DNA of 64,000 nucleotides from an uncultured Bacteroidaceae bacterium (GTDB lineage: Bacteria; Bacteroidota; Bacteroidia; Bacteroidales; Bacteroidaceae): contig CAJOEI010000006.1 in assembly GCA_905233465.1 (NCBI GenBank), forward strand, positions 1 to 64,000, given 5' to 3'. The notes below the pieces were generated by a model. That model was not told where the DNA came from, searched no databases, and was given only the letters and a program-made list of their open reading frames with translations. Numbering within the stretch: the stretch's first letter is position 1; the number at the start of each line of letters is the position of its first letter. Position numbers and translations under genes: made by a program. Below, piece by piece: positions 46,693-62,355 of the stretch.

Positions 46693-47652
46693 TTGATAAA
46701 ATTCTTGGTGGGCAGGAAGTTGAAAAGTGAACAACGTGCATTCGTGGTTATTATTGCCATGATTGTGGCTTTCTTCTGCGGAATGTTTTTTGAGCGGAGG
46801 TTGGCCACACAACGGCATGTGGATGTGGATTTGGTCATTGAGGAACCTGTTGGCAGTCACTCAGACATTATTGCAGATGCCCACAGGACTAAGCGCGGAA
46901 GTGATGGCTCCCGTGATGCTGTGACAGAGGCTTTGGATGATGATGTAGAGGTTGTTGAACCTGAGACTTTTAGCTTTGACCCTAATACCGCAAACGCTGA
47001 TACATTGCTGCGTCTGGGGTTTACGTCATGGCAGGTGAAAGCATTGCTGAAATATCGCAGTCGTGGCGGCCGCTTCCACCGCACGGAGGACTTGAAACGT
47101 CTTTATTACATGACGCCGGAGTTGTATGAGCGTCTGGCCCAAGTTGTAAGGATAGACAAGCGTTATCGCTACTATGACTCAGATGAGCTGGCGGCAGATG
47201 AAGCTGCAAGGCGTGACAGCGTGGACAAGCATCGCAGTCCAAGACAGGAGAAATTTGCTGAACAGGTGCATTTGGACCTGAACAACGTTGATACAGTCAC
47301 GCTGAAGAAGGTGCCTGGAATAGCCTCATATCGTGCCAGGCAGATTGTGGGCTATCGCGAGCGTCTGGGTGGCTATGTCAGCACATCACAACTGGCAGAG
47401 CTGGAGGGCTTCCCTGTCGAAGAGCTGGCAGCGTGGTTTGTTGTAGATTCATCCCGCGTGCGGCGCATCAATCTCAATCATGCGTCGGTGGCGGAGATGG
47501 GACGACATCCGTATATTGGCTTTGCCCGTGCCCGTGCTATTGAGGGCTATCGCCACAAAACGGGTCGAATAAATGCCTTGTCCGATTTGAGGCTGTTGCC
47601 CGGATTCGACGATGAATCGCTGCGGCGTATTGAGCCTTATGTGAACTATTGA
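46693..47652 (+). CDS. ComEA-like protein with three helix-hairpin-helix units
   Basis: About 319 residues; start uncertain (TTG 46693 or GTG 46708, no early ATG). A membrane helix (FVVIIAMIVAFFCGMFF) near the N-terminus is followed by an acidic linker and three HhH repeats: FDPNTANADTLLRLGFTSWQ, LDLNNVDTVTLKKVPGIASYRARQIVGYR and INLNHASVAEMGRHPYIGFARARAIEGYR. Such proteins bind DNA non-specifically at the outer face of the membrane in competent bacteria; a role in DNA uptake is possible. Its first codons (KLKSEQ) resemble the junction word AAGTTGAAAAGTGAA. The 3' end overlaps the convergent gene by 7 bases. Confidence 0.8.
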   Translation: MIKFLVGRKLKSEQRAFVVIIAMIVAFFCGMFFERRLATQRHVDVDLVIEEPVGSHSDIIADAHRTKRGSDGSRDAVTEALDDDVEVVEPETFSFDPNTANADTLLRLGFTSWQVKALLKYRSRGGRFHRTEDLKRLYYMTPELYERLAQVVRIDKRYRYYDSDELAADEAARRDSVDKHRSPRQEKFAEQVHLDLNNVDTVTLKKVPGIASYRARQIVGYRERLGGYVSTSQLAELEGFPVEELAAWFVVDSSRVRRINLNHASVAEMGRHPYIGFARARAIEGYRHKTGRINALSDLRLLPGFDDESLRRIEPYVNY

Positions 47653-49688
47653 GGTTCGGCGTTGAAGTCCATTGTCAGCTGTGTCGCCGACCGTGGCAAT
47701 GGCTCTTTTGTCATTGTTGGGGACACATTTGGCGTCTCCCTGCGTGTCGCTTGGATGGTTCTCTTCAATCCTTCGAAATGGTATTGGCGGAAGCCCGTCA
47801 TGGTGACTTCCTGTGTGCAGGCGTTGCGCCACCATGTGGCCAGTTGTGGCCGTTCCTTATTTGTCGGCAGGCGGTGGTAGCGCTTGCAGAAAGCCGCCAT
47901 CTGTCGGCAATGTTGCAGGAAAATCATCTCGCGGTCATTAGCCGGGAAGTCCATTGGCTGGATGTCGGACAGTGCCTGATGGTAGAGTTGATAGTTGGGA
48001 TCTTGGGTCTTGGTGCTGGTGGTGTACTTGTGGTGAGTGTAGTAGAGCATAGCCTCGACACTCTTCTGTGCTTTGGAGAACGGCCAACGCTCGTACTCTG
48101 CCAGAAAGCGTCGTATGCCTCGTATGGCACCTTGAACGAGATGCGGCGATGGCCAGAAACGTTGCGGGTAGATGACACCGGTGAGGCCCACATAGTAGCA
48201 TCGGCGTTCGGGGCTGACGTCCTCGCTCTCTGCTAATATAGCCGTGCTGTCGATGTAGTACGACAGTTCATCTTCCACTGCAGCAAGATATATGCTGGTG
48301 TAGCAACTCTTGTATGTGGTATGGGAGCGTTCCGCCATCATCTGGCGGCACAGCAGGTCTACTCGTACGGGTTCTGTGGCATCGCGCAGCAAATGTACTG
48401 CCAATTCATTGAGCGAACCTGCGAAGGTGTTCCATTCACGCAACTGGTAGACCGATTTGCTTCCTACAGCCTGAAAGCGGTTGTCCCGCAGCATGTAGCT
48501 GCGGATGAAGCTGCTGTTGGTGTGGTGGTCGTCAGGATGCATCGAGCGAAACTTAGCCCATATGTCTTCTACTGACATGGGTTTGCCGTTTTGATGCAGG
48601 ATATCATAGATGTCCTTGAGATAGTTGATGCTGTTTGCGTGGATTATTATCATATCGTCGCTCACTTCAACATTCTTCAGCATAGGCAACAATATACGGA
48701 TGATGCTGGCTATCTCATCAGCTGTGGCGACATCGTCTTGTGTAACCTTGCGGGTGTATGTGGATATTATTATAGGCAGCGACAGATGTATATCTTCGAT
48801 ATTCTTCAAGTTGGCATCGTGTCCTATGGCCTCCATCATAGCTTCTATCCTGAAGTTGGCAAAACGTGTATGTGCTGCGAAAACCAAATCTGGCTGCCGC
48901 CATGTGGCATCGTTGCTCCGATGGCCATTGGCACGTGTGCCATTGGATTGCAGGGAAATGATGTTTAGTGGGGCTACCAGCCGCAGGATGGATAGAAAAC
49001 CAAAGAATGTGACGCCGTTAAGATGTTCAGCCTCACGTATAGCATCCCATTTAACGATGTCAGTTGTGAGCAGCGGCTCGGAGATGAAGTCCAGCGCCTG
49101 CCAGCGTTGTAGGTCCCACACAGGCAAGTCCTCATCAGAGTGTGCGATGTTTGAAGAACTGATTTGGCGTACGCGTTCACGTGTCAAACCGAATTCCTGT
49201 CCCAGTTTGGTCATCGATTCTTGCTCGCCGCATATACCATTTGCATGCGCATAGAGCTGCATGTGTTTTGATGACGAGCGCAGCAAGAACTTTGATGCGA
49301 TGAAGAAGACAGGGTATCTGCCCTCGTGTTGATGGAAATCCACGACAAACCGGCATTCATCAGCTGTGAGAAAAGGATATTCGTGAGCGGTGATGTCAAG
49401 AAACACTTCAAGCTGTTGACCGTTTTCTATCTTCTGATATGTATCGTAGAAGTCCTGAAGGAACTGTTTCACCACAGTGATGCTCTGCCGGCCCATGCCT
49501 CTCCATTTGGCCAACTCTGATGGTTTGTTGAGATAGAACTCGATGTCCTGATATGTTAATATAGCGTGACTTATCAGATTCCTGGCACGCGAGTTGCTGA
49601 CTCTGCTAATCATGTGTGTTAACAGATGCTGTGTCAGTTCCTTGGTCGCTTCGGTGTCTGGATGTATGATGATAGTTGGGTGAGGCAT
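47646..49688 (-). CDS. Multi-HTH DNA-binding protein with a sigma-region-4-like motif
   Basis: 680 residues, no single named family recognised. Visible modules: residues about 45-85 resemble the RNA polymerase alpha C-terminal helix-hairpin domain (SELAKWRGMGRQSITVVKQFL); 158-178 is a sigma-70 region 4 helix-turn-helix (KLGQEFGLTRERVRQI); 353-416 resembles a HARE-HTH unit (DILHQNGKPMSVEDIWAKF, later SKSVYQLREW); and 590-650 recalls a helicase-associated domain (FCKRYHRLPTNKERPQLATWW). There is no catalytic motif. It lies at the end of the sulfonation gene run, 50 bases after the SGNH hydrolase gene, and could be cotranscribed. Confidence 0.7.
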   Translation of the reverse strand: MPHPTIIIHPDTEATKELTQHLLTHMISRVSNSRARNLISHAILTYQDIEFYLNKPSELAKWRGMGRQSITVVKQFLQDFYDTYQKIENGQQLEVFLDITAHEYPFLTADECRFVVDFHQHEGRYPVFFIASKFLLRSSSKHMQLYAHANGICGEQESMTKLGQEFGLTRERVRQISSSNIAHSDEDLPVWDLQRWQALDFISEPLLTTDIVKWDAIREAEHLNGVTFFGFLSILRLVAPLNIISLQSNGTRANGHRSNDATWRQPDLVFAAHTRFANFRIEAMMEAIGHDANLKNIEDIHLSLPIIISTYTRKVTQDDVATADEIASIIRILLPMLKNVEVSDDMIIIHANSINYLKDIYDILHQNGKPMSVEDIWAKFRSMHPDDHHTNSSFIRSYMLRDNRFQAVGSKSVYQLREWNTFAGSLNELAVHLLRDATEPVRVDLLCRQMMAERSHTTYKSCYTSIYLAAVEDELSYYIDSTAILAESEDVSPERRCYYVGLTGVIYPQRFWPSPHLVQGAIRGIRRFLAEYERWPFSKAQKSVEAMLYYTHHKYTTSTKTQDPNYQLYHQALSDIQPMDFPANDREMIFLQHCRQMAAFCKRYHRLPTNKERPQLATWWRNACTQEVTMTGFRQYHFEGLKRTIQATRRETPNVSPTMTKEPLPRSATQLTMDFNAEPQ

Positions 49689-49738: not shown

Positions 49739-50422
49739 TTAGAGCCCTGTGATGAATTTATCTGCCCAGTTCAGGATTAGGTTGTGGCCGTCATTGTTGA
49801 GGTGCGCGGTGTCGCCGTTTTGGAAGTAACGCTGGCGGAAGTCTTCGGAACGTACATGTATGCCGCTCTCCAGATCGGCGCGCAGCACAGGAATGCTCCA
49901 TTCGCCACAGACTTCGACAATGGTGTTTATAACCTGATGGAAGCCTGTACGGTTGACGTTCCATGGTGTGACAAAGGCTATGCGTGCCTGTGGGAACTTG
50001 TCAATGAGACGTGCGCAGAGATTCTCCATGGCATCGCGGAAGATGGCGAGACTGTCGGCGCTGTCCTTGATGAGCCCGGCATCATTGTGCCCAGCGATGA
50101 CGATGACATAGTCAGCAGACATCTGGATTTCGCTCAAGCGTGTGAGCATTGATGGCCCAAAGCCGTCGCGTGTGCGGTCGAAAGCAATGCTGCTGCCGTT
50201 GCGGCCGTAGTTGATATATCGCATGTTGTGGCGTTGTGCAACCTTGTAGTGCCAGGTGTTCTCGAACGGCTCCCTATGGTTTTTAACATATGAGTCGCCG
50301 AAGACAAGAAGGGTCTTGTTGTCGAGATGGTCTGCAGGTGTCGTCTGTGCCACAGCAGGAGAGCCGAACAGACATGCTGCGACGAATGCCAGATAGAGTA
50401 GGGGAGATGTGATATGTTTCAT
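49739..50422 (-). CDS. SGNH/GDSL-family secreted hydrolase
   Basis: 227 residues with a signal peptide (cleavage near AVAQ). SGNH blocks: LVFGDSYVKNH (nucleophile Ser), YGRNGSS, VIIAGHND-like VIVIAGHNDAG and the C-terminal DTAHLNNDGH (Asp/His pair). Members hydrolyse esters of carbohydrates or lipids. It is the gene after the sulfotransferase on the same strand (42 bases apart), so it may remove an acyl or acetyl group from the sulfonated substrate or its precursor, but this is guesswork. Confidence 0.85.
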   Translation of the reverse strand: MKHITSPLLYLAFVAACLFGSPAVAQTTPADHLDNKTLLVFGDSYVKNHREPFENTWHYKVAQRHNMRYINYGRNGSSIAFDRTRDGFGPSMLTRLSEIQMSADYVIVIAGHNDAGLIKDSADSLAIFRDAMENLCARLIDKFPQARIAFVTPWNVNRTGFHQVINTIVEVCGEWSIPVLRADLESGIHVRSEDFRQRYFQNGDTAHLNNDGHNLILNWADKFITGL

Positions 50423-50464
50423 GACTATAGTGGGTTTATTATTACATTAAGCACAATTCATAGT

Positions 50465-51574
50465 TCAACGTCGTTCATAGCCCCAGTCGTTGATGGCCTG
50501 ACTCCAATAGCGGTTGACGAGGTCGATGGTACGGGGCTTATACTCGTATTGGTTCTTCTTGTAGCCACGTTTGCTCTCTATGTATGAGCGGATTGCTGGC
50601 TCGGCATCGTCCCATCCCGGCAGCTGCAGCTTGGAATAGATGTTGCGTGTGGTGGTATAGGCATCGTTCTCGAAGTCCTCAAAACGAACTTCATACAGGT
50701 TGCCTTCGGGGATGAATAGCTTTTGCCGCTGGTATGCTTCATACAATCGCGGATAGACCTGTATGCAGTTCATCTCGACATCGTCGTCGCTCACAGCCTG
50801 TGCGCGCAGTGGTGCAATGGTCTGTGTGAAGAACGACCGAGTGCTCTCGAACACGGTGTATGGATTGCGCATGAGATAGATGAACTTGGCATTGGGGAAC
50901 ATTTCCACGAGAGCCTGAACATGACCTGTGTGGGGCGGATTCTTCGACAAGTATTGTGTGCCACCGGTGTTCCACATCGATATCTTCACTATCTTCATGA
51001 AGGCCTCTTGATATGCCCGCTTCTCTTCGGGGGTGATGTTGTCGAAGGTGAGATAGCGGTCGCAGAACTCCAGCTGATGCTTGGGGTAGTACCAGAAGTT
51101 GTAGTAGGAGTATGGCATAGTGTTGTTCATGGCGAACTCCTCTTCCTGTGGTGTATCGGGTGTGAGCTCCATGCCGTCGGTGGGCCGGTGGCTGGGGATG
51201 AAGATGTTCATCATGAACTTCATGAACGGCTGTCCCCACAGCATCAGGTGAGGAAACACAGTCTGATAGGTTGTGGTGTGGGCAAAGTGGTGATCCTGTG
51301 CAAAGATATTGTGCACAAAGGTCGTGCCGCTACGCCAGTGACCAAGAATGAACAGTGGGTCATGCTCCAGAGGCTTGTCACGCAGCAACTTGTCATAGCG
51401 TCGGTCTTGTATCGGTGCGGGTAATGACAGCAGACGTTGCAATGCCTTGGTCATCCGTATCTTGGTGCGGTATTGAGGATCCTCTTTCCAGAGTGAGGTC
51501 ATTTCGTCGAATGTCTTTCTGTCGGCACCAATAAGAGGATAGACAGGAAGGTTCTCGAATTTCAGTAAACCCAT
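50465..51574 (-). CDS. PAPS-dependent sulfotransferase
   Basis: 369 residues. The 5'-phosphosulfate loop FILGHWRSGTTFVHNI (about 76-90) and the 3'-phosphate site KFIYLMRNPYTVFESTRSFF (about 237-256) are both complete. It belongs to the Sulfotransfer_3-type family that includes Bacteroides thetaiotaomicron BT_0416, which sulfonates cholesterol and other steroids (from memory of published work). Neighbours are cysC/cysD/cysN for the sulfonate donor and a steroid 5-alpha-reductase homologue 36 bases upstream. The acceptor is therefore probably a steroid or sterol (inference). Confidence 0.9.
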   Translation of the reverse strand: MGLLKFENLPVYPLIGADRKTFDEMTSLWKEDPQYRTKIRMTKALQRLLSLPAPIQDRRYDKLLRDKPLEHDPLFILGHWRSGTTFVHNIFAQDHHFAHTTTYQTVFPHLMLWGQPFMKFMMNIFIPSHRPTDGMELTPDTPQEEEFAMNNTMPYSYYNFWYYPKHQLEFCDRYLTFDNITPEEKRAYQEAFMKIVKISMWNTGGTQYLSKNPPHTGHVQALVEMFPNAKFIYLMRNPYTVFESTRSFFTQTIAPLRAQAVSDDDVEMNCIQVYPRLYEAYQRQKLFIPEGNLYEVRFEDFENDAYTTTRNIYSKLQLPGWDDAEPAIRSYIESKRGYKKNQYEYKPRTIDLVNRYWSQAINDWGYERR

Positions 51575-51610
51575 ATTTGTTTGCGAATTAACTATTTACG
51601 ATTAATGAGA

Positions 51611-52381
51611 TTAATATAAGAATGGAATGATTCGTTTGCGATTGCCTACGGCTGAGTCACCAAACTCGGCACGATATTTCTTGTGTATGGCGTGGGCACG
51701 TGGCACGAGGTTCGCCGCCGTCCAGATGGGAAACACCCAAGCTGCTGGTGTCGCGGCAACAACAGCGAAGCCTATCCACTCAACGAGCTCTCCAAAATAG
51801 TTGGCACTGGTGACAAGACGATAGTAGCCACGATTGGGCAGATAGTGGCGTGTGTCGCCAGGTTGACGCAGATGGCGGATGACGTGGTCGCTATGGAGGT
51901 TGATGGCCATACCGGCAGCGAAAAGTGCTATGCCAACGATTGAGCGGAAACTCATGAGGTAGTCTACGCCGAGGGCATAGTCGGGGTTGGGGTACCAATA
52001 GAGGGCTCCGCCCTGAAGGATGCCGTTGATGGTGTTGAAGATTATGCCCATGAGCATGATAGCCACTGGCATCGTGCTGCGTCCCGTCATCAGGCAGGGG
52101 AAGACAAAGCTACGCTGAAAATAGTGAAGCTCGAAAAGACCGAAGAGCACAAGTTCGGGAATGTGCGTGCTGGCACCTGTTGAGAGCCAAATGGCAAGCA
52201 TGACGAAGAACACTGGCGCTTCCATGAGCACCCAAGCAACGCGGTTGTTTATGCTCCAACCCCACTGGTGGGAACGGAACTGTCCGTAGCCGGCCGTGAC
52301 GAAGTAGAGGCTTATGAACACCACAACGGCTATAGCGAGCATGGCAACGATGAGGATGTTGAAAGTGGAGGCAGAGAGCAT
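51611..52381 (-). CDS. Steroid 5-alpha-reductase (SRD5A) homologue
   Basis: 256 residues with about seven membrane helices. The C-terminal half matches the human SRD5A enzymes closely by memory: INLHSDHVIRHLR (161-172; human INIHSDxxLRxLR), RLVTSANYFGELVEWIGFA (188-206) and the final RKRIIPFLY. In the N-terminal half, AWVLMEAPVFF keeps the catalytic Glu (Glu54; the Gln before it is Met) and FELHYFQRSFVFP keeps the Tyr (Tyr87) that polarises the steroid ketone. The NADPH-binding Asn, Asp and Glu positions are kept. A reductase of a delta4-3-keto steroid or related enone is the best prediction. It lies between cysN (28 bases) and the sulfotransferase. Confidence 0.88.
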   Translation of the reverse strand: MLSASTFNILIVAMLAIAVVVFISLYFVTAGYGQFRSHQWGWSINNRVAWVLMEAPVFFVMLAIWLSTGASTHIPELVLFGLFELHYFQRSFVFPCLMTGRSTMPVAIMLMGIIFNTINGILQGGALYWYPNPDYALGVDYLMSFRSIVGIALFAAGMAINLHSDHVIRHLRQPGDTRHYLPNRGYYRLVTSANYFGELVEWIGFAVVAATPAAWVFPIWTAANLVPRAHAIHKKYRAEFGDSAVGNRKRIIPFLY

Positions 52382-52409
52382 TGTCTGTTACTTAAGCAGG
52401 TTTTCAAAC

Positions 52410-53837
52410 TTACTTTATTACCCTTATTTCGAGGCCTTGACGAGCGAGCTCGCGCACAGCCGTGTCGATGGCGGCATAGTGGTCGGGACTGATGCCCAGT
52501 TTGGGCAGGTCAAGAGTCGGTATGATGTCGTTCTCAAGTGCGCTCTCGTCGAGAGGTGACAGAATCATGCCCACAGCCGAAGTGTTGTTGGTGATGGGGT
52601 CAATGAGGATGAATGCTCCTGTCTGACGGTTCTTGGCGTAGGCATCAAAGAACAGCGTCTTGGCCGTGAGGATATCCACTTGTCCTATCTCGTTGAGCTG
52701 GAACGGTTTGCCAGGTTTTTGCTCAAGAGTGTTGACATCCACACGATGTCGCAGAGCCACGATGCTGGCTCGCGTGGTGTTGGTGTTGTGCTTGAGGAAG
52801 AATTGCTTGCCCGTATCCATTGGCTCCTCGTCCATCCACACGAGCATGGTGGTGAAGTGGCGGCCTATGCATGGCAGATTGTCGGGGTGTACTATCATCT
52901 CGCCGCGGCTGATGTCAATCTCGTCCTCAAGGGTGATGGTCACGGACTGTGGCGGGAAAGCGTACTGTAATTCGCCATCATAGGTCACAATGCTTTTCAC
53001 GTGGCTGCGTTTCATTGATGGCAGGGCAACGACCTCGTCGCCCACGCGGACGACGCCGCTGGCAACCTTACCCGAGAAGCCGCGGAAGTCAAGATTGGGA
53101 CGCAGTACATACTGCACCGGGTAGCGGAAATCCGTAAAGTTGCGGTCGGCGTGTATGGGCACCGTCTCAAGGAATTCCAGCAATGCAGGTCCTTGGTACC
53201 ACGGTGTGCGTTCGCTTCGCTCAACAACATTGTCCCCGTCGAGAGCCGACAGTGGAAAGCACGTGACATCCTCGATGCCGAGCTGGTCGGTCAGCGCACG
53301 GTAGTCCTGAACGATGTTGTCAAAGACCTTCTGGTCGAAGTCAACGAGGTCCATCTTGTTCACAGCCAGAACAATGTGCTTGATGCCCAGCAGCGACACC
53401 AGATAGGTGTGGCGTCGTGTCTGAGTGATGACTCCCGTCCGGCAGTCAACAAGTATGATGGCGAGATTGGCTGTTGAGCCACCCGTAATCATGTTTCGGG
53501 TATATTGCTCGTGTCCCGGTGTGTCGGCGATGATGAACTTGCGGCGGTTGGTGGAGAAATATCTGTATGCAACATCGATAGTGATGCCTTCCTCGCGCTC
53601 AGCCTTCAGGCCATCGAGCAGCAGGGCATAGTCGATGTGGTCTCCTGCATTGCCTACACGCTTGGAATCGCGTTCGAGTGCTGCCAGTTGGTCGTCATAC
53701 AGTTTCTTTGAGTCAAACAGCAGACGGCCGATGAGTGTGGATTTGCCATCGTCAACGCTGCCGGCTGTGAGCAGGCGCAAGAGGTCCTTCTGTTCATCGG
53801 CATCCAGAAAAGCCCGTATATCCAATTCTTTTGACAT
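52410..53837 (-). CDS. cysN: Sulfate adenylyltransferase GTPase subunit CysN
   Basis: 475 residues, EF-Tu-like GTPase that drives ATP sulfurylase. G motifs: [17 protein letters not shown] (G1), [14 protein letters not shown] (G3), [10 protein letters not shown] (G4); then beta-barrel domains with [25 protein letters not shown] (cited in part). There is no C-terminal APS kinase domain; cysC is separate. The partner gene cysD is 5.3 kb upstream on the same strand, separated by one huge gene, whereas these two are usually adjacent. Confidence 0.96.
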
Positions 53838-53887
53838 AAGTCTGATGTGTAGATTATAGTTGATTGTTGAATGTTTAGAATCTGAAG

Positions 53888-56800
53888 TTATGATAGCTTG
53901 ATTGTCTGTCCATCGCGAGAGATGGTTTTATTGACGATAAGTTCTGCTATGCGGCGTGTGATGACGTCGTCGGCACGCTGGCCTCGTCGCTGATATCCGA
54001 ATGAGCGTGACACAACGCGCAACAAGTCCTCCATAGGCAGTGCAACGTGTTGTCGCACAGCATTGACGATGGCCTTGTCCAACTCATTCACGGGAACTGT
54101 CTCGATGTCACGTTTTTTATCAGGCGTCAGTGCTGGTTCAAACTGCACGTCTTTTGAGCCGACAACGGTCGGTGTCCTGAAATTCAGATGAGGTGCTTCT
54201 GCACGCTGCAGCGACTGTCCGCGCGTCTTCACGGCTTGCATTATGGCTTCCAGCACTTGCTCGCGGTTGTGCATCCATTCGATTGTCCACACACGCATGA
54301 TGTGCCATCCAAGTCCCGTGAGCACGGAAGGCCGTGTGAGTTCGCGGTCGCGTGCAATTTCTGTTGCTGCCCATGCGCGTCCGTCGATGAGTATACCCAG
54401 GATGTAGCGACTGGGCTCCTCGGGATCAGGTACAGCAACGTCCACTTTGAACTGCGAGCGTCCCACGGCAGTGGTGGCCTCGCAGCCGCGTGCCTTAAGT
54501 GCATCGGCAATCTCGCGCGGTATGTCGCGGTCGAGGATGGTACCCACATGAGCGGCGTTCATCGACAGTGAGCCTTGCTGGGCGTATTCGAGGAACTTAC
54601 GCAGTCCTGCTACGCCAGCGGCCTGTGAGCGCCGCAGGTCAATCTGTTCGGGCTTGAGCGTCGAGAAGACCATCATCTCATATCGTGCACGCGACACTGC
54701 AACATTCAAGCGTCGCTCACCGCCACGGTTGTTCAGTGGGCCGAAGTTCATGGACACATTGCCATGTTTGTCAGGACCATAGCCTATACTGAAGAGAATT
54801 ACATCGCGCTCATCACCCTGAACATTCTCCAGATTCTTGATGAAGATGGGTTCGTCGCCCTGTGTGGCTTTGGCTTCGAGGTCGGGATGCTTGGCCAGCG
54901 CCTCGGTGAGAACGTCTTCGATAAGGTTTTGCTGCGCCACAGAAAATGCCACTACACCTATGCTGCGCTTGGACAGCTCGTCGTCGGCGAGGCGACGCAA
55001 TATTTCGGCAGTCACGGCTTCGGCCTCGGCGAGGTTGCTGCGTCGGCCGCCTTTGTCATAGGAGCCTTCCACCTCCTGCAGCGTGACTTTTGACACGCGG
55101 TCGTCGGCCGAAGGGAAGGTATACAGACGCCCGTCGTAGTATTCCTGATTAGAGAATGCGATGAGCGACTCGTGCTTCGAGCGATAGTGGAAGGCCAGAT
55201 AGTGGTCAGCCATAGACAGCGCGTGACAATCGTCCAGAATGCTATCAAGGTCGTCCAGGTCTGCCTCGTCCTCGTCCACGTTGGTGGTGTTGAAGAAACT
55301 GGTTGGAGGCATCTGCTTGTTGTCGCCAACAACGATGAGAGCCTTGCCGCGTCCTATGGCGCCAATGGCCTCTGATGTCGGCATCTGTGATGCCTCGTCG
55401 AATATCACAAGATCAAATTTAGGGCTGTCCAGGTCGATGAATTGTGCCACGCTGATGGGGCTCATCAGCATGCATGGGCACAACCGTGGCAGCAGATTGG
55501 GAATTTGGTCGATGATGTGTCTGATGCTTGTCCCACGTCCTCCGTTGGCTATGTTGCGCTTTAGGATGTTGACCTCAGAATTTGTGGCCGTCTCGCTCGT
55601 TACGCTGGGTATGTTCTTTGCCAGCCGGCAGTAGAGTTCCTTCTCTGTCAGCTTCTGGAAGTGTTCGGTGAGCTGCTTGTAGCGTTCGATGATGTCGGCC
55701 ATAATCAGACCATTGAAGGACCGTAGAGCTTCATTGTCCTCAATCATCTCTGTCGCCCATGTCGTGTATGCCGTCTTTTGCAGCGCCAGTGCCGCCTCCT
55801 TGCCTGTGTGCCCATCTGTGATGAAGCGGACAATGTCCTTCAGACCCTTGTCCTCCAGCTGTTGCTGATGTTCGTTCCATCTGTACCAGTCGCGCATCAT
55901 GTCGGTGTGCTGCAGCCATTGTGTGATGTTTCGTTGCAGCGTAGCAGCATAGTCTGTGTCGCAGTCGGGCAGCATGCAGATGGCATCTATCTGTCTTAAC
56001 AAGCTGTGCCATTGCTCCTGTGTAGACTTGAGTGCCTTCTGCCAGTTGCGGGCTCCGCCCTCGATGTTGCGGTAGCCGCTGACAACGCTCTCTTCGTTTA
56101 TGCCCATGCCAAGGCTTATGTCCTCATAATCTGCCAGCCTGTTGATGAAGCTGTCTATGTCGCTGGCCTTCATGTCCGGCTTATATGCCCGCAGTGTTGT
56201 CAGCGTTTTGCGTGTGGACAGATATCGTGGCAACAGCCACTTGGCCTTTGTCTGAAGCCATGTGCGGCGCAGTTCGTCGGCATCAAGTTTGAGAGCTTCT
56301 ATGGTGCCAAAGGCAATCATGTCGCTGAGCTCTTCGAGCCATTTATAACCTCCTATGGTGTCTGGCACGTTGATGCCGCATGCTGTGTTCAACTGCTTGC
56401 GGGCGGTGTCCATGCGTTGCATCACGCTGCTGAGTTCACGCAACAGTGTCTCAAGCTGGCTGATGCTATCGCGTCGGTTGTCCTTCATGCGCAATGATGC
56501 CAATGGATGTCCTGCCGGATGGCCAGTAATCTGGAAGATAGTGTCTAAACTTGACAATTCCTGTGTGAGTTCTTCCAGTTGCTGCTCATCTATGGCCATG
56601 AGCACATCCTTGTTTATCTCTATGCCTTGGTCTATGGGTATATTGGCATAGCGCTCTATGCAGTCATAAACGGAAAGGCCGCTCTTGCCTTTCCCATGCA
56701 TGGCCATCAGGTGGTTGTTGAGCGCCTTCCGTTCATTGAACAGCTCTTGCGAACGAATCTCAAAGCTCTCGCTGAGGTGGCCGTGCGTGACGTCCAATGC

Positions 56801-59065
56801 CTGTTGCAGCTGATTAAGGAAGTGTGACTTTGTCACTTTGTTGGAGTGCAGCTCCAGACAGAATGGATCGAGCCCTATCTTTGCCAGACGACGTTGTACC
56901 ACGCTGAGAGCCGCCATCTTCTCGGCTACGAAGAGCACTCGTTTGCCTTGATACATAGCATTGGCGATGATGTTGGTGATGGTCTGGCTCTTGCCCGTTC
57001 CTGGAGGGCCGTAGAGGATGAAGCTTTTGCCTTTACCACTCTCAATAACGGCTTTCAGCTGCGAGCTGTCGACGCTGATGGGCGTAGCCACCGTTGCCGG
57101 CACGTTGTTTGTGTCGAAGTCGCGAATGTCAACATCCTTGTCTGCATCGTCCAGCAGCAGCCGTTGCTGCATGAGGCTTGCCACTACTGGGCTTGTCTGC
57201 AGCTTCTCTGCGCCAGTGTGGATATCGTTCCACATCACGAACTTGGAGAATGAGAACAGTCCCAGCAGACTCTCTTCCATGAGGTTCCATCTCGACTTGT
57301 CGCGTATGGCATTGCGTATGGCAGCAAAGATATATCTCACGTCCACGCCGCTCTCGTCGCGCGGCATCGGGTCGAAGGTGGGCAGTTGCAGCTTGAACTC
57401 CTGATTGAGGAACTCCACAAGAGTGATGTTGAGAATAATCTCTTCGTCGCGTGTGCGCACCACATATCCTGCTCCGTTCCTTACGATGTCCACGGGAAGC
57501 AGCAGTATGGGAGCATATCTCGGCAGCTCGCTGACAGGTGTCTCATACCATTTCAGCATTCCTATGGCAATGAACAGCGAGTTGGCACCGTTCTCCTCCA
57601 ACGCCGTGCGGGCGTTGCGGTAGAGAGCTGTGAGCGAAGGCTTTAGCTCTTCTTCATTCAAGTATGTGTATATCCTGTGGCTGTTGATCTGTTCCACCAC
57701 CAGCTCACGAAGATCGGCTGCATCGTTGGTCGAGTCGTGCATTGTGCGTGCTGCCACATTCTTCTGTTTTGGCCAGGGCTGAATGGAGTAGTTCACGCCA
57801 GTCTGCAAAATATCTTCGAGGTGGTCTATGTCGAAGCTGACAAACTGCACGGCACGTTTGCCGATGCGTGTGTTGAGCAGGTTGTTGCGCATGGTGAAGT
57901 CCAGCAACTTGCGTTCCCAGATGGCTTGTCGGCTCAGCTCACGCGCGTTCATGGCTTGGCTGAAGTCATAGCTCTGACGCTGCATGGCTTCTTCGGCTGC
58001 CTGTTTGTGGTCAATGCCTTCGTTGTTGATGACGACCGAGCCGTCAGCAGCAATAGTTTGCGTCAACGGGCGTATATTGTCGAGACGGCACCTCTTGATG
58101 TCGATTGACATCTGGAAAGCAGCCTCGTCATGCAGCTTGTCTTCTGCTGCCTGCACAGCGCTCTCGAAGCTCACGGCCCCGCTCTGTGTCAACATCGTGG
58201 TCTCTACAACTACGATGTCGTTGGTGCCGTCGCTCACAGCCTTGAGCAGGAAGGCAGCATCGTCGTTGGTGGTGTTTTGATATGTCTCGTTGCGTAGCCA
58301 GCAGCCCACAAATGCATGCCCTTGCACAATCACCACTATGGGATTGAGACTTGCTGCTTCGAGACATGAGGCGAACAGCAGCGTCAGGTCCAGACAATTG
58401 CCGAGTTTCTCTGTCAGCACTTTCTCTGCCATGCGCACCCGTTGTCCGGTTTTTTCGAAGCTGGGTGCTGCAGCTGCATAGACCAGTCCCTCGGCACGCA
58501 GGGCCTCGAAGATAGCCGCCACCTGTGCTCGCACACGGTTGGGGTTGCATGTCTGGTAGGCATCCATCTGTCCGCCACGTCCCCATTTCTCTTGTTGTCG
58601 CTGCGCTTCCACGATGATGTGTGAGAGCAGCGGGTGGTTGGGTGTGACAAAACTGGCTATCAACTCAGGCAGCACGCCAACTCCAAGCCAGTGGTCAAAT
58701 GGCATGAACTGTAGCTCGCCGTCGCATGTCATCACTTGTTCATCACCTATGGATAGCGTGACGCTGAAAGATGCTGACGTCGTCTCTGTGCGACGTGCCA
58801 GTTCATCGATATCGGGCCTGATATTCAGTTGGCCAGATACCTTTCTTCCGGCTGGCACGACGTCGATGTGCTCCTCTATTGGTGACAGCAACTGACCTTC
58901 GACACGGATGCATACGTGTTCCCACGCCGCTTCACCAGTGTTGGTGAGTTCGTAGGTGGCTATCCCCTTGGGAGCATAACACAACAGTGCATAGTTGATG
59001 CGTTCTATATAACTCAGGCTCAGCTCTCCGCTGTGGCTGTCGGGAAGAGAATGCTTGATATCCAT
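53888..59065 (-). CDS. DUF4011-type helicase with Vsr/MTES_1575-like nuclease and DUF3320 end
   Basis: 1725 residues. Order: an N-terminal beta domain; a transglutaminase-like region ([24 protein letters not shown], about 230-260); DUF4011-like [16 protein letters not shown] (about 390); SF1 helicase Walker [19 protein letters not shown] (about 683-700), Walker [15 protein letters not shown] (about 1220), [26 protein letters not shown] (about 1422) and VAVSRAR; a PD-(D/E)XK-type fold ([39 protein letters not shown], 1505-1608); and a DUF3320-like end (residues 1655-1725). This domain set occurs in single-gene helicase-nuclease proteins thought to be anti-phage. It sits between cysD and cysN, same strand, gaps 39 and 50 bases. 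Confidence 0.88.
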
Positions 59066-59104
59066 GCGCGCGCGTACATTAAATATATTATTTGTAATGA
59101 TGCG

Positions 59105-60013
59105 TCAGAAGTAACCTTCGCGTTTCTTCTGTTCCATGCTGGCTTCCTGGTCGAAGTCAATGACGCGGGTAGTGCGTTCGCTCTTTGTGGTTGTCATCAT
59201 TTCCTCAACAATCTCTTCAATTGTTGTTGCGTTACTCTCCACGGCTCCGGTCAGTGGCCAGCAGCCAAGTGTGCGGAAGCGCACCATGCGTGGCTTGATG
59301 AGCGGACGATACTGTTCGGGCAGGCGGTCGTCATCGGCCATGATGAGGTTGCCGTCAATCTCCACACAGGGACGTTCCTTGGCGTAGTAGAGTGGCACGA
59401 TGGGTATGTTCTCCAGTCGTATGTACTGCCAGATGTCCAGCTCTGTCCAGTTGCTGAGGGGGAAGACGCGTATGCTTTCCCCTTTGTGTATGCGAGCGTT
59501 GTAGATATCCCACAGCTCTGGGCGTTGGTTCTTGGGGTCCCATTGCTGGAACTGGTCGCGGAATGAGAATATGCGTTCCTTGGCGCGACTTTTCTCCTCA
59601 TCACGACGTGCTCCGCCGAAAGCCGCATCAAACTTGTATTTATTCAGTGCGTCAAGCAGAGCCTTGGTCTTCATGAGGTCGGTGTGCACCTTCGAGCCGT
59701 GAGTGAACGGTCCTACGCCAGCATTGAAGGCTTCCATGTTCGACTCCACGATGAGGTTCCAGCCGTGCTGCTTAGCATAACTGTCGCGGAACTCGATCAT
59801 CTCGCGGAACTTCCACTTGCTGTCGATGTGCATGAGTGGGAATGGCACCTTGCCCGGTGCAAAGGCTTTCTCCGCCAAGCGCACCATGACACTGCTGTCC
59901 TTGCCGATGCTGTAGAGCATCACGGGGTTTTCGAATTCGGCCGCCACTTCGCGGATGATGTGTATGCTCTCGGCTTCGAGTTCCTGAAGATGTGAGAGAT
60001 GATAGTTATTCAT
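59105..60013 (-). CDS. cysD: Sulfate adenylyltransferase subunit CysD
   Basis: 302 residues, PAPS-reductase-like ATP-pyrophosphatase fold that makes APS from ATP and sulfate with CysN. Motifs: [24 protein letters not shown] (P-loop SxGKDS), [41 protein letters not shown], and the C-terminal [15 protein letters not shown]. No CysH-type PAPS reductase is near. It follows cysC by 31 bases. Confidence 0.96.
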
Positions 60014-60044
60014 GATGTGAGTATGTTAATAGGACAGATGATGT

Positions 60045-60638
60045 TTACGAGAGTAGTGAGAGGATGAGCGCTACCACTTGTTCGACGCTTGTTTGCAAAG
60101 GTTGTTGTGTCGTGTCAATGTCGAGGGCGGGGTTGGTGGGTGCTTCAAATGGCGCGCTGATGCCTGTGAAGTCCTTCACCTCACCGCGTCGTGCACGGGC
60201 ATAGAGCCCTTTGACGTCGCGACACTCGCATTCTTCAAGTGGCGTGCTGACATAGACCTCAAAGAAGTCGTCCGCACCGATGATGCTTCGCGCCATCTCC
60301 CGATATTCATTTGTTGGTGACACGAATGCTGCCAGCGTGACTATGCCTGTGTCGACAAAGAGTTTGCCCACTTCGGCTATGCGACGTATGTTCTCACGGC
60401 GGTCGTCGGCGCTGAAGCCGAGTCCGGCATTGATGCCCGTGCGTATGTTGTCGCCGTCAAGGATGCGGCATAGGATTCCGCGCTTGTGCAGCTCGCGCTC
60501 CACACCGAGGGCTATGGTCGACTTGCCAGAACCGCTCAGCCCGGTGAACCAAATCATCATGCCGCGCTGGTGGAGCAGTTGCTCCTTGTCCTGACGAGTC
60601 ATCATTTTATCATATATCGGATAGATGTTGTTTTCCAT
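60045..60638 (-). CDS. cysC: Adenylylsulfate kinase
   Basis: 197 residues; phosphorylates APS to PAPS, the sulfonate donor. Motifs: WFTGLSGSGKSTIALGVERELH (P-loop), LDGDNIRTGINAGLGFSADDRRENIRRIAEV (cited in part), and the lid region FEVYVSTPLEECECRDVKGLYARARRGEVKDFTG (cited in part). Its ATG directly follows the permease stop codon with no spacer. Since no reductase genes follow, the PAPS made here is most simply used by the sulfotransferase downstream. Confidence 0.97.
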   Translation of the reverse strand: MENNIYPIYDKMMTRQDKEQLLHQRGMMIWFTGLSGSGKSTIALGVERELHKRGILCRILDGDNIRTGINAGLGFSADDRRENIRRIAEVGKLFVDTGIVTLAAFVSPTNEYREMARSIIGADDFFEVYVSTPLEECECRDVKGLYARARRGEVKDFTGISAPFEAPTNPALDIDTTQQPLQTSVEQVVALILSLLS

Positions 60639-62297
60639 TTATATAAGATTATAGAATATAGGTATGAGCAGCACGCTGAGCACGAAGACGATGATGTTCA
60701 TCGGCAGGCCCACGCGCACGAAATCCTTGAACTTATAGCCTCCCACACCCTGCACGATGAGGTTGGTCTGGTAGCCTATGGGTGTTGAGAAGGCTGAACT
60801 GGCGGCGAAGCACACGCACACCACGAATGGCATGGGGTTGACTCCAAGTTTCTCGGACACGGCAAGTGCCAGAGGGAAAGCCAATGCAGCTGCCGCGTTG
60901 TTGGTAATCAGCTCGGTGAAGATGTTTGTGATGAGGAACAGTGCCGCCAGGATGATGTATATGCCGTAGTCTGAGCCCCTGACGATGTCGGTGAGTGAGA
61001 TGATATAGCTGGCAATGAAGTCGGCAAAGCCCGAACGCGTCATGGCCGTGGAGATGGCAAAGGCGCATGCGATGGTGATGAGCACGTCCCATGAGAAGAA
61101 CTTGGTGTACTTGCGTGGCGAGAACATTCGCGTCCATGCCATGATGACCGTGGTGATGCATACGAAGAAGAACATATCCAGCTTCAGGCCTGGCATGTGT
61201 GCCTGCACGAAGTCCGACTGCGCCAGCATCTGTTTCACAGGCTCAAGCTCGCCTACAGTGGCACCTATGATCATCAGGATGAGCAGCAGCAGTGCGAACC
61301 AGCGCTTTTTCCTGCCCAATGGCGGCTCGTAGTCGCCAACGCGGTTAATCATCCAGAACACGCGGCTGTCGCCCCATGCTTTCATGAAACTATCGTCGGC
61401 ATCAATGATGAGTGTGTCCTCGTGTGTGAGGCGCATGTTCATGAAGTCGCCCTGCAGAATGTTGCCGTTGCGGCTTATGGCCCGCACGTGTGCTCCATAG
61501 TGGCGGTAGAAGTCAAATTCATGCAGCGTCTTGCCCAGTCCCGGGAAGCGGTTGCCCAGCAATACTTCATGGCGCGTCATCCCTGGTGCCAAGTCCTGCT
61601 CCGCTGCTTCTTCCTCGCTGCGGCGTTCGTCAGGCAGGAAATAGCGTGAGAAGAAGATGAGGTATATCAGTCCTGCTGCAGCAATGAAGATACCCACCTT
61701 TGTCAGCTCAAACATCGACATACCATCAATGCCGAAGCGCATAAGTATGCCTTCGGCGGCGCCATTTTCCACTGCCGCAGCCTCGTCCTTGGCTTCCTGC
61801 AGCAGCATGCCGTGTAGCACGAGGTTGGTGGTGGTGCCTATGAGCGTACAGATGCCGCCGATGACAGTGGCGTATGATAGCGGGATGAGGAACTTGGTGG
61901 GTGAGAGTTTCATCTTGCGGGCCCAGTTCTTGATCATCGGGGCGAAGATGACCACCACTGGAGTGTTGTTGAAGAAGGCCGAGATGAATGTCACGATGGG
62001 GTAGAAGCGTAGTCCGGCGCTGGTGATGGTTGCGTTCTTCCTTGGCAGCATGCGGAAGACGATGCGTTCCAGGATGCCGCTCTTGCGCACACCTTCGCTG
62101 ACAAGATAGAGCAGCGCTACCGTTATCATACCCTTGTTTGCAAATCCTTTCAGGGCTTCTTCGGGGCTGATGATGCCAGCCACAAGCAGCATCACCACTG
62201 CCGTGAAAAGTATCAGTCCTGGCCGCAGACACTCGCGCATGAGTGCCACGAGCATGAACACCAGCACAGCCGCTACATATATTATAGGGAAAGACAT
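60639..62297 (-). CDS. SLC13/DASS-type anion permease with RCK_C-like domain
   Basis: 552 residues, polytopic. Two halves of the divalent anion symporter fold (FFNNTPVVVIFAPMIKNWARKM and ITNIFTELITNNAAAALAFPLALAVSEKLG, both with the N-N-T/A-type loops) are separated by a regulatory RCK_C-like domain (ILQGDFMNMRLTHEDTLIIDADDSF). Members with this layout carry sulfate or other anions in bacteria. As first gene of the cysC/cysD/cysN run and with no spacer before cysC, it is the probable sulfate importer. It has a strong promoter of its own. Confidence 0.9.
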   Translation of the reverse strand: MSFPIIYVAAVLVFMLVALMRECLRPGLILFTAVVMLLVAGIISPEEALKGFANKGMITVALLYLVSEGVRKSGILERIVFRMLPRKNATITSAGLRFYPIVTFISAFFNNTPVVVIFAPMIKNWARKMKLSPTKFLIPLSYATVIGGICTLIGTTTNLVLHGMLLQEAKDEAAAVENGAAEGILMRFGIDGMSMFELTKVGIFIAAAGLIYLIFFSRYFLPDERRSEEEAAEQDLAPGMTRHEVLLGNRFPGLGKTLHEFDFYRHYGAHVRAISRNGNILQGDFMNMRLTHEDTLIIDADDSFMKAWGDSRVFWMINRVGDYEPPLGRKKRWFALLLLILMIIGATVGELEPVKQMLAQSDFVQAHMPGLKLDMFFFVCITTVIMAWTRMFSPRKYTKFFSWDVLITIACAFAISTAMTRSGFADFIASYIISLTDIVRGSDYGIYIILAALFLITNIFTELITNNAAAALAFPLALAVSEKLGVNPMPFVVCVCFAASSAFSTPIGYQTNLIVQGVGGYKFKDFVRVGLPMNIIVFVLSVLLIPIFYNLI

Positions 62298-62323
62298 CTG
62301 AATTTATAATTGGTAAAACGCCG

Positions 62324-62355
62324 CAAAGATACATCTATTTTGTTATTTAGCCAAA
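62324..62355 (-). promoter_or_regulatory. Promoter of the sulfate activation and sulfonation operon
   Basis: On the minus strand TTTG (complement of 62352-62355), 20 bases, TATCTTTG (complement of 62324-62331), an exact fit to the Bacteroidota consensus, 27 bases before the permease ATG. Confidence 0.75.

Follow-up and report, generated by a model that had tools for sequence, protein, structure and literature searches.

The window analyzed here (64,000 nucleotides at the start of contig C6, CAJOEI010000006.1, in GenBank assembly GCA_905233465.1 of an uncultured Bacteroidaceae bacterium) contains eight minus-strand genes arranged in one row downstream of a Bacteroides-type promoter. These genes encode, in order, a permease, CysC, CysD, a ProA/DUF4011 helicase-nuclease, CysN, an SRD5A-family protein, a PAPS-type sulfotransferase and a GDSL hydrolase (Table 1), with a spacing of 0–50 bp (0, 31, 39, 50, 28, 36, and 42 bp along the operon). 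The pattern search for promoters, with spacers of 18–21, used what we take to be the Bacteroides-type consensus; it produced three occurrences in the window compared to 0.22 in shuffles, and the match upstream of the permease is the sole one at or in the operon. A generic scan for sigma-70 promoters and terminators was uninformative (17 promoter-like sites vs 10.4 expected, and 13 terminator-like sites vs 11.3 expected). The promoter and all genes listed in a preliminary description of this locus were recovered at their positions and on the minus strand, and the family of each gene was borne out by profile matches; the ProA-type gene and the GDSL hydrolase gene, which lie within the same region, were absent from that list. 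The permease matches the CitMHS/Na_sulph_symp families (Pfam profile search), and its substrate is presumably sulfate. A GDSL homologue is located downstream of the sulfotransferase in loci L002, L003, and L113 as well.

Table 1 Features of the sulfonation operon, in the direction of transcription (coordinates in the window).
Feature	Coordinates	Strand	Length	Evidence or remark
Bacteroides-type promoter, TTTG-N20-TATCTTTG	62324..62355	-		end 26 bp before permease ATG
DASS/SLC13-type anion permease	60639..62297	-	552 aa	PF03600 213.7 bits, PF00939 69.5 bits
CysC, APS kinase	60045..60638	-	197 aa	PF01583 210.8 bits; TIGR00455 231.3 bits (cut-off 138.7)
CysD, ATP sulfurylase small subunit	59105..60013	-	302 aa	TIGR02039 495.4 bits (cut-off 396.6)
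ProA-type DUF4011 SF1 helicase, MTES_1575 nuclease domain	53888..59065	-	1725 aa	nested between cysD and cysN
CysN, ATP sulfurylase GTPase subunit	52410..53837	-	475 aa	NF003478 equivalog 696.6 bits (cut-off 590)
SRD5A-family (3-oxo-Delta4-steroid 5-alpha-reductase) membrane protein	51611..52381	-	256 aa	PF02544 124.7 bits
PAPS-type sulfotransferase	50465..51574	-	369 aa	PF13469 144.4 bits; syntenic counterpart of BT_0416 (BtSULT)
GDSL/SGNH hydrolase	49739..50422	-	227 aa	PF13472 52.1 bits; 42 bp downstream of sulfotransferase

The assignment of the 256-aa protein to the SRD5A family, made in the preliminary description, holds: the Pfam score is 124.7 bits for Steroid_dh (cut-off 22.6) vs 25.8 bits for DUF1295, the best solved relative in a phmmer search is PbSRD5A (7c83, E=1.7e-48, followed by human SRD5A2, 7bw1, 2.4e-35), and a Foldseek search with an AlphaFold2 model (pLDDT 79.7) retrieved these bacterial and human enzymes as the only PDB matches at E≤0.001 (TM 0.84 and 0.79, respectively). 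A DUF1295 or phospholipid methyltransferase identity is ruled out by the Pfam scores, phmmer, and Foldseek. The Glu54/Tyr87 pair, previously noted as catalytic, is kept in all 43 rows with a letter at these positions in an alignment of 44 rows, and is presumably the counterpart of the catalytic Glu57/Tyr91 of SRD5A (human numbering). Among 25 positions that we take to be the NADPH and steroid contacts of human SRD5A2, 17 are the same in the window protein and 8 differ. Human R114 is replaced by Met, and PbSRD5A likewise lacks an Arg at this position in the phmmer alignment.

The sulfotransferase belongs to the Sulfotransfer_3 family (Pfam), has sulfotransferases as its best Foldseek matches, and is 61% identical to a Bacteroides gallinaceum sulfotransferase (P0181). 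The alignment is invariant or nearly invariant around FILGHWRSGTTF and RNPYTVFESTR, two stretches that we take to be the PAPS sites. The permease-Cys-sulfotransferase core corresponds to BT_0412-0416, and it is by synteny that we equate the sulfotransferase with BT_0416: as in the BtSULT cluster, genes for sulfate import and PAPS synthesis precede the sulfotransferase gene, and the window operon additionally contains ProA and SRD5A. Of the 80 named loci kept, 66 have CysD and CysN ahead of the sulfotransferase on its own strand, and 50 have CysC and the permease there too. According to the study on Bacteroides thetaiotaomicron (PMC9417993), BT_0412-BT_0416 is a cluster for cholesterol and steroid sulfonation; BT_0416 sulfonates cholesterol, its deletion abolishes the activity, and the common bile acids tested were not sulfated.

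The absence of PAPS reductase and sulfite reductase, initially noted for the window, extends to the assembled host genome (84.8% complete), where the sole PF01507 match is CysD and no NIR_SIR match was detected; cysH or cysI elsewhere in the genome had been put forward as the sign that the cys genes serve assimilation. CysQ is encoded in this genome at C17:43445-44191, with a score above the cut-off. As for the acceptor, coprostanol is a 5-beta sterol, and isolithocholic acid is a 5-beta compound as well. A review that lists isolithocholic acid among planar steroids backs the premise that sulfonation favors flat 5-alpha acceptors, but this premise is qualified by the sulfation of coprostanol by B. 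thetaiotaomicron (PMC9417993), so that flatness of the A/B rings is not a strict requirement.

The 1725-aa protein nested in the operon matches DUF4011 (147.5 bits), MTES_1575 (82.2 bits), the antiphage_ProA equivalog NF058533 (1780 bits, above the cut-off of 1500) and, in PADLOC, PDC-S37 (1107.5 bits). Fourteen further loci have a ProA homologue at the corresponding position (CysD was not seen in one of them); most operonic relatives have a length of about 1290 aa and are missing the bulk of the N-terminal ~350 residues. Across the 15 loci, Mantel tests yielded a rho of 0.82 for ProA and the sulfotransferase and of 0.69 for CysN and the sulfotransferase (0 of 2000 permutations as high in each case), and of 0.61 for ProA and CysN (3 of 2000). 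The ProA distances track those of the surrounding operon genes, and a scenario in which ProA was replaced here repeatedly is therefore not favoured. A DUF4011 gene is listed as a core gene of Pseudomonas aeruginosa (PMC10250203).

In relatives, SRD5A is usually the first gene of a 5AR-OYE-SDR cluster. A review (PMC10382948) describes clustering of the 5AR of gut Bacteroidota with an NADH:flavin oxidoreductase and a 3-beta-HSDH, ties the cluster to flat "allo" bile acids, and reports that the 5AR of P. merdae, clustered with a predicted 3-beta-HSDH and a flavin oxidoreductase, is required for alloLCA derivatives. Among 41 SRD5A loci (the window and 40 fetched ones, 20 selected by hand from the genus and 20 from family hits), the OYE family is present in 30, including 19 of the 20 from family hits, and the SDR family in 26. 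Strong matches in 121 genomes of the genus nearly coincide (SRD5A in 58, OYE in 57, and SDR in 58), with OYE found in 54 of the 58 SRD5A-carrying genomes. Three of the four SRD5A genomes without OYE possess an extended SDR that matches 3Beta_HSD, and in two of these three (G287 and G267) it is located between SRD5A and the sulfotransferase; in three of the six genomes with an extended SDR, it lies away from both genes, and its association with SRD5A is not significant (p 0.10). The window operon contains no 3-keto reductase gene. In the host genome, the 5AR is on C6, whereas an adjacent OYE-SDR pair, 80% (OYE) and 77% (SDR) identical to the cassette genes, is on contig C51 with no SRD5A beside it. 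These homologues of genes that lie downstream of SRD5A in relatives could supply the missing 3-keto reduction, providing a candidate for the separate reduction step postulated earlier. The surroundings of the pair and of related places (MatE transporter, DUF5013, galactanase, amylase) offer no functional clue.

The operon is probably a BT_0412-0416-type operon for steroid sulfonation that has taken up the 5AR of a 5AR-OYE-SDR (iso-allo steroid) cassette. The original proposal of 5-alpha reduction followed by sulfonation, encoded in one operon, is supported by the SRD5A rather than DUF1295 identity of the reductase and by the lack of cysH and cysI in the assembled genome. We infer that the likely products are 5-alpha-steroid 3-sulfates; the substrate and the order of steps given below, as well as their action on one and the same molecule, are proposed on this basis. 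The permease would import sulfate, CysD/CysN would produce APS, and CysC would produce PAPS. The membrane-embedded SRD5A would use NADPH to convert a 3-oxo-Delta4 steroid or sterol to a flat 5-alpha-3-ketone, the C51 SDR or another 3-HSDH would reduce the 3-ketone to a 3-hydroxyl, and the sulfotransferase would add the sulfate cap to this hydroxyl. CysQ, encoded outside the operon, would remove the by-product PAP.

Alternatively, SRD5A might have landed in the operon by chance, through an ordinary relocation of a gene to an operon that is expressed, and be metabolically unconnected with sulfonation. SRD5A lies inside the sulfonation operon in only 7 of the 121 genus genomes (7 of the 86 with the sulfotransferase; one case is a fragment at a contig end), and all seven group together in the SRD5A tree; the tree fits a single capture, so these cases are not independent events. 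The unrelated-looking ProA helicase nested in the same operon indicates that the operon accepts other genes, and there are SRD5A genes with neither OYE nor sulfotransferase adjoining (G235 and G350). At the genus level, the co-occurrence of SRD5A and the sulfotransferase is weak and speaks for chance placement as well (47 of 58 genomes with SRD5A vs 39 of 63 without; p 0.03, phylogeny not corrected). Nevertheless, we consider chance placement unlikely given the recurrence of the linkage. The two genes are less than 20 kb apart in 12 of the 47 genus genomes that carry both; in five genomes beyond the seven, SRD5A is within 16 kb of the sulfotransferase, with the cassette 12–16 kb upstream; the distance is 6.3 kb in Odoribacter and 3.8 kb in a member of another family (G525), where the neighboring genes include one of the 3Beta_HSD type and one for an MMPL protein that has a sterol-sensing match. 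The insertion of an extended SDR between the two genes in G287 and G267 and the order-wide co-occurrence (25/41 vs 38/254, phylogeny not corrected) also argue against chance.

Another possibility is that the molecule modified is not a host or plant steroid but a polyprenoid or other lipid of the bacterium itself, with the SRD5A protein reducing an enone or a polyprenol, in the manner of SRD5A3, and the sulfotransferase producing a sulfated envelope lipid. We regard this scenario as distinctly improbable: among solved structures, steroid 5-alpha-reductases are the closest, SRD5A is accompanied by OYE and SDR genes in a cluster that a review (PMC10382948) ties to bile acids, and deletion of the syntenic cholesterol-sulfonating gene BT_0416 abolishes the activity (PMC9417993). 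In its favor, conservation of the cys-sulfotransferase core across Bacteroidales of various hosts would fit a housekeeping role, and 6 of the 15 closest named loci (L002-L016) are titled rumen, omasum, or reticulum, compartments where bile acids are presumably scarce. A role of the cys genes in assimilation or in the sulfation of glycans, with a sulfotransferase unrelated to steroids, is hardly credible: CysC, CysD, and CysN are generic, the Sulfotransfer_3 family is broad and the genome is 84.8% complete, but neither PAPS reductase nor sulfite reductase was found in the assembly, and the order of import, PAPS synthesis, and sulfotransferase genes is the same as that described for BT_0412-0416.

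Gut-bacterial pathways that form flat (5-alpha) steroids and those that sulfonate steroids have so far been described from separate gene clusters; a partial search of the literature, which is no proof of absence, yielded no operon joining SRD5A with a sulfonation cluster. With a native operon that joins both, one can directly test whether bacterial flattening of steroids serves their sulfonation; such an operon would also represent a compact set of genes for the production of 5-alpha-steroid sulfates. The host bacterium is related to rumen bacteria; if this kinship reflects habitat, it would point to steroid chemistry away from bile. It is conceivable, if doubtful, that Bacteroidota repeatedly assemble dedicated steroid capping, in which SRD5A flattens the A/B rings ahead of 3-sulfonation, in rumen-related bacteria exposed to plant sterols, saponin aglycones, or diet-derived enones instead of bile, and that, in one clade, a co-inherited helicase-nuclease brings steroid capping and defence against DNA invaders under one promoter.

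Compared with known systems, the window operon has the same succession of import, PAPS synthesis, and sulfotransferase genes as BT_0412-0416, and named Bacteroides loci (L068 and L078) show the same permease-CysC-CysD-CysN-sulfotransferase arrangement. It differs from BT_0412-0416, described without an SRD5A, ProA, or GDSL gene in the available text, by the addition of SRD5A between CysN and the sulfotransferase and of ProA between CysD and CysN. The window SRD5A has the fold and the Glu54/Tyr87 pair in common with PbSRD5A and human SRD5A2, with 38% and 33% identity, respectively, in the Foldseek alignments. Its genome encodes the same kind of 5AR as the 5AR-OYE-SDR cluster, along with OYE and SDR homologues, but in a split form, with the 5AR in the sulfonation operon and the OYE-SDR pair on another contig. 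Finally, the helicase-nuclease shares DUF4011, the SF1 helicase, and the MTES_1575 nuclease with the ProA (NF058533), Hhe, and PADLOC PDC-S37 proteins but, unlike these systems, is nested in a biosynthetic operon.

Eight open reading frames are encoded on the minus strand from 62297 to 49739, with gaps of 0–50 bp. The preliminary description read this run as a probable steroid-sulfonation operon, and the genes it named are all present, on that strand and in families confirmed by Pfam and NCBIfam; its entries were correct, and its list omitted the fourth (DUF4011) and eighth (GDSL) genes. The sequence 5' of the operon matches TTTG-N20-TANNTTTG, the Bacteroides promoter consensus. This pattern (spacer 18–21) occurs 3 times in 64 kb versus 0.22 in shuffles, with one copy at the operon and none within it. 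The 680-aa frame immediately 3' of the operon matches nothing in Pfam or PADLOC at E≤0.001.

Features of the minus-strand operon and its flanks
Feature	Position	Strand	Assignment
Promoter-consensus match	62355-62324		pattern match
1, CitMHS/DASS-type permease		minus	Pfam, NCBIfam
2, CysC		minus	Pfam, NCBIfam
3, CysD		minus	Pfam, NCBIfam
4, 1725-aa DUF4011/helicase/MTES_1575 protein	53888-59065	minus	Pfam, NCBIfam
5, CysN		minus	Pfam, NCBIfam
6, Steroid_dh protein (SRD5A)	51611-52381	minus	Pfam, NCBIfam
7, Sulfotransfer_3 protein	50465-51574	minus	Pfam, NCBIfam
8, GDSL hydrolase		minus	Pfam, NCBIfam
680-aa open reading frame	47646-49688	minus	

The reductase scores 124.7 bits against Steroid_dh versus 25.8 bits against DUF1295. 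With phmmer, the best matches are PbSRD5A (7c83; 1.7e-48) and human SRD5A2 (7bw1; 2.4e-35), followed by a weak enoyl-CoA reductase match (7e-05) and three chance-like matches near E 1. The same two structures are the sole matches at E≤0.001 of its AlphaFold2 model (pLDDT 79.7), namely 7c83 (E 7e-13, TM 0.84) and 7bw1 (E 3.7e-11, TM 0.79). Glu54 and Tyr87, retained in all 43 SRD5A rows (of 44) with a letter there, align to the catalytic Glu57 and Tyr91 of human SRD5A2; the reductase shares 17 of 25 functional positions with the human enzyme and departs from it at 8.

For the model of the sulfotransferase (pLDDT 81.4), the closest matches are mycobacterial STF9 and STF1, with other sulfotransferases next. 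Among the best 80 of at least 594 sulfotransferase stretches in named genomes, CysD and CysN lie 5' on the same strand in 66, and CysC and the permease as well in 50; the loci without the full arrangement include ones cut by contig ends. The genome that carries the window (2.54 Mb, 57 contigs, 84.8% complete) has CysD as its only PAPS_reduct match, yielded no NIR_SIR domain, and encodes CysQ.

Six genomes place the reductase between CysN and the sulfotransferase: the window genome, G010, G252, G305, G308, and G287. A further genome, G267, shows the sulfotransferase, an extended SDR (short-chain dehydrogenase), and an SRD5A truncated where the contig stops; it encodes a second SRD5A elsewhere. 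G308, G010, and G267 add no cases to the named loci because they appear to be the same as L003, L015, and L008; the record titles indicate goat rumen for L003 and a rumen co-assembly for L008. In G078, G344, G251, G265, and G309, a cassette of SRD5A, an OYE-type flavin oxidoreductase, and an SDR lies on the same strand, upstream of the permease and 12–16 kb from the sulfotransferase; the intervening stretch holds carbamoyl-phosphate synthase genes. Overall, the two genes are <20 kb apart in 12 of the 47 genus genomes with both, and these 12 form two tree groups; about 0.6 would be expected from random placement in an assumed 3-Mb genome.

At the order level (295 genomes, kinship ignored), SRD5A was found in 25 of the 41 sulfotransferase genomes versus 38 of the 254 others, the association being stronger for distant sulfotransferases (32–39% identity; 13/16) than for closer ones (12/25, p 0.002). 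The genes are ≤7 kb apart in 3 of the 25 genomes with both: the window genome, Odoribacter G460, and G525, from another Bacteroidales family. In Odoribacter (L181/L043), CysC-CysD-CysN-sulfotransferase and an SRD5A-OYE-SDR-SDR cassette share a strand, the cassette lying 6.3 kb further downstream, beyond other genes. In G525 (L180, 4809-13965), a distant SRD5A (39%) adjoins a 3Beta_HSD-type gene, an MMPL protein with a sterol-sensing/Patched match, and a LolA-like protein; a distant sulfotransferase (34%) lies 3.8 kb away on the other strand, with a TonB receptor nearby.

At E≤0.001, 36 of the 251 family genomes have an SRD5A match, a weak one in four cases. We compared 41 loci: the window, 20 hand-picked from the genus, and 20 taken from the family hits, including two of that same genus. 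In the usual order, SRD5A is followed by OYE (PF00724), which partially matches the bile-acid BaiCD model far under the cut-off, and SDR (PF00106); 30 loci have a member of the OYE family, among them 19 of the 20 family-search loci, and 26 have one of the SDR family. Strong matches in 121 genus genomes (SRD5A 58, OYE 57, SDR 58) nearly coincide, 54 of the 58 SRD5A genomes also having OYE. The window's genome has OYE and SDR next to each other on a different contig, C51, with no SRD5A beside them, and its single SRD5A match is the one within the cys operon. In a tree of 44 SRD5As, 27 of them unlabelled, the seven operonic ones (one a fragment) group together relative to the other labelled rows, with modest support (57/81), G305 loosely placed, and 0/500 shuffles as low; this grouping points to a single capture into the operon as the simplest reading.

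An extended SDR (~512 aa) with a 3Beta_HSD match is present in 3 of the 4 genus SRD5A genomes without OYE, and in 6 of 121 genus genomes altogether (L116:8587-10125, L158, L169, and L131). It adjoins SRD5A or the sulfotransferase in three of the six, lying between them in G287 and G267, and is away from both in the other three; across the 121 genomes, it shows no significant association with SRD5A (p 0.10).

The 1725-aa protein scores above the NF058533 antiphage_ProA cut-off and matches PADLOC PDC-S37. The window and 13 other loci have such a gene between CysD and CysN; in one more, L169, whose fetched stretch ends before CysD, a homologue directly precedes CysN. Distances among the copies correlate with the corresponding distances for the sulfotransferase (rho 0.82) and for CysN (rho 0.61), so this gene was probably inherited together with the operon. 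The window encodes a long form; most of the first ~350 residues are missing from the 14 relatives (a longer L003 frame, which runs into CysD, was dismissed as spurious), and 12 of the 14, all but L003 and L113, also lack over half of residues 884–1045. A defence role is putative; in Pseudomonas aeruginosa, a DUF4011 gene belongs to the core genome (PMC10250203). In L118 (6616-6984) and at the same place in L122, where ProA is absent, a ~122-aa frame between CysD and CysN resembles, by eye, a DUF559/Vsr-like nuclease.

The proposal that 5-alpha reduction comes first and sulfonation follows a separate 3-keto reduction is supported, and now includes a likely origin of the reductase, a candidate for the absent 3-keto step, and further linkage elsewhere. 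A review supports the premise that flat 5-alpha steroids are good acceptors for sulfonation. 5-alpha reduction of a Delta4-3-ketone yields a planar A/B-trans ring, and the planar 5-alpha ketone, once 3-keto reduced, would be a suitable sulfotransferase acceptor. Genes for each of the three catalytic types are present in the genome, and we infer that the three enzymes would act serially on a single molecule. B. thetaiotaomicron sulfates coprostanol too, which counts against a strict flat-ring requirement, and in the same study no sulfation was seen for the common bile acids assayed (PMC9417993).

The window operon combines two known modules in a new arrangement. In B. thetaiotaomicron, BT_0412-BT_0416 comprise sulfate import, PAPS synthesis, and a sulfotransferase, with cholesterol sulfate as the product, and deletion of BT_0416 abolishes this activity (PMC9417993); the permease-Cys-sulfotransferase arrangement in the named loci fits this cluster by synteny. 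The SRD5A-OYE-SDR loci resemble the 5AR cluster with a predicted 3-beta-HSDH and a flavin oxidoreductase described in a second publication, where disruption of the P. merdae 5AR stopped formation of alloLCA derivatives (PMC10382948).
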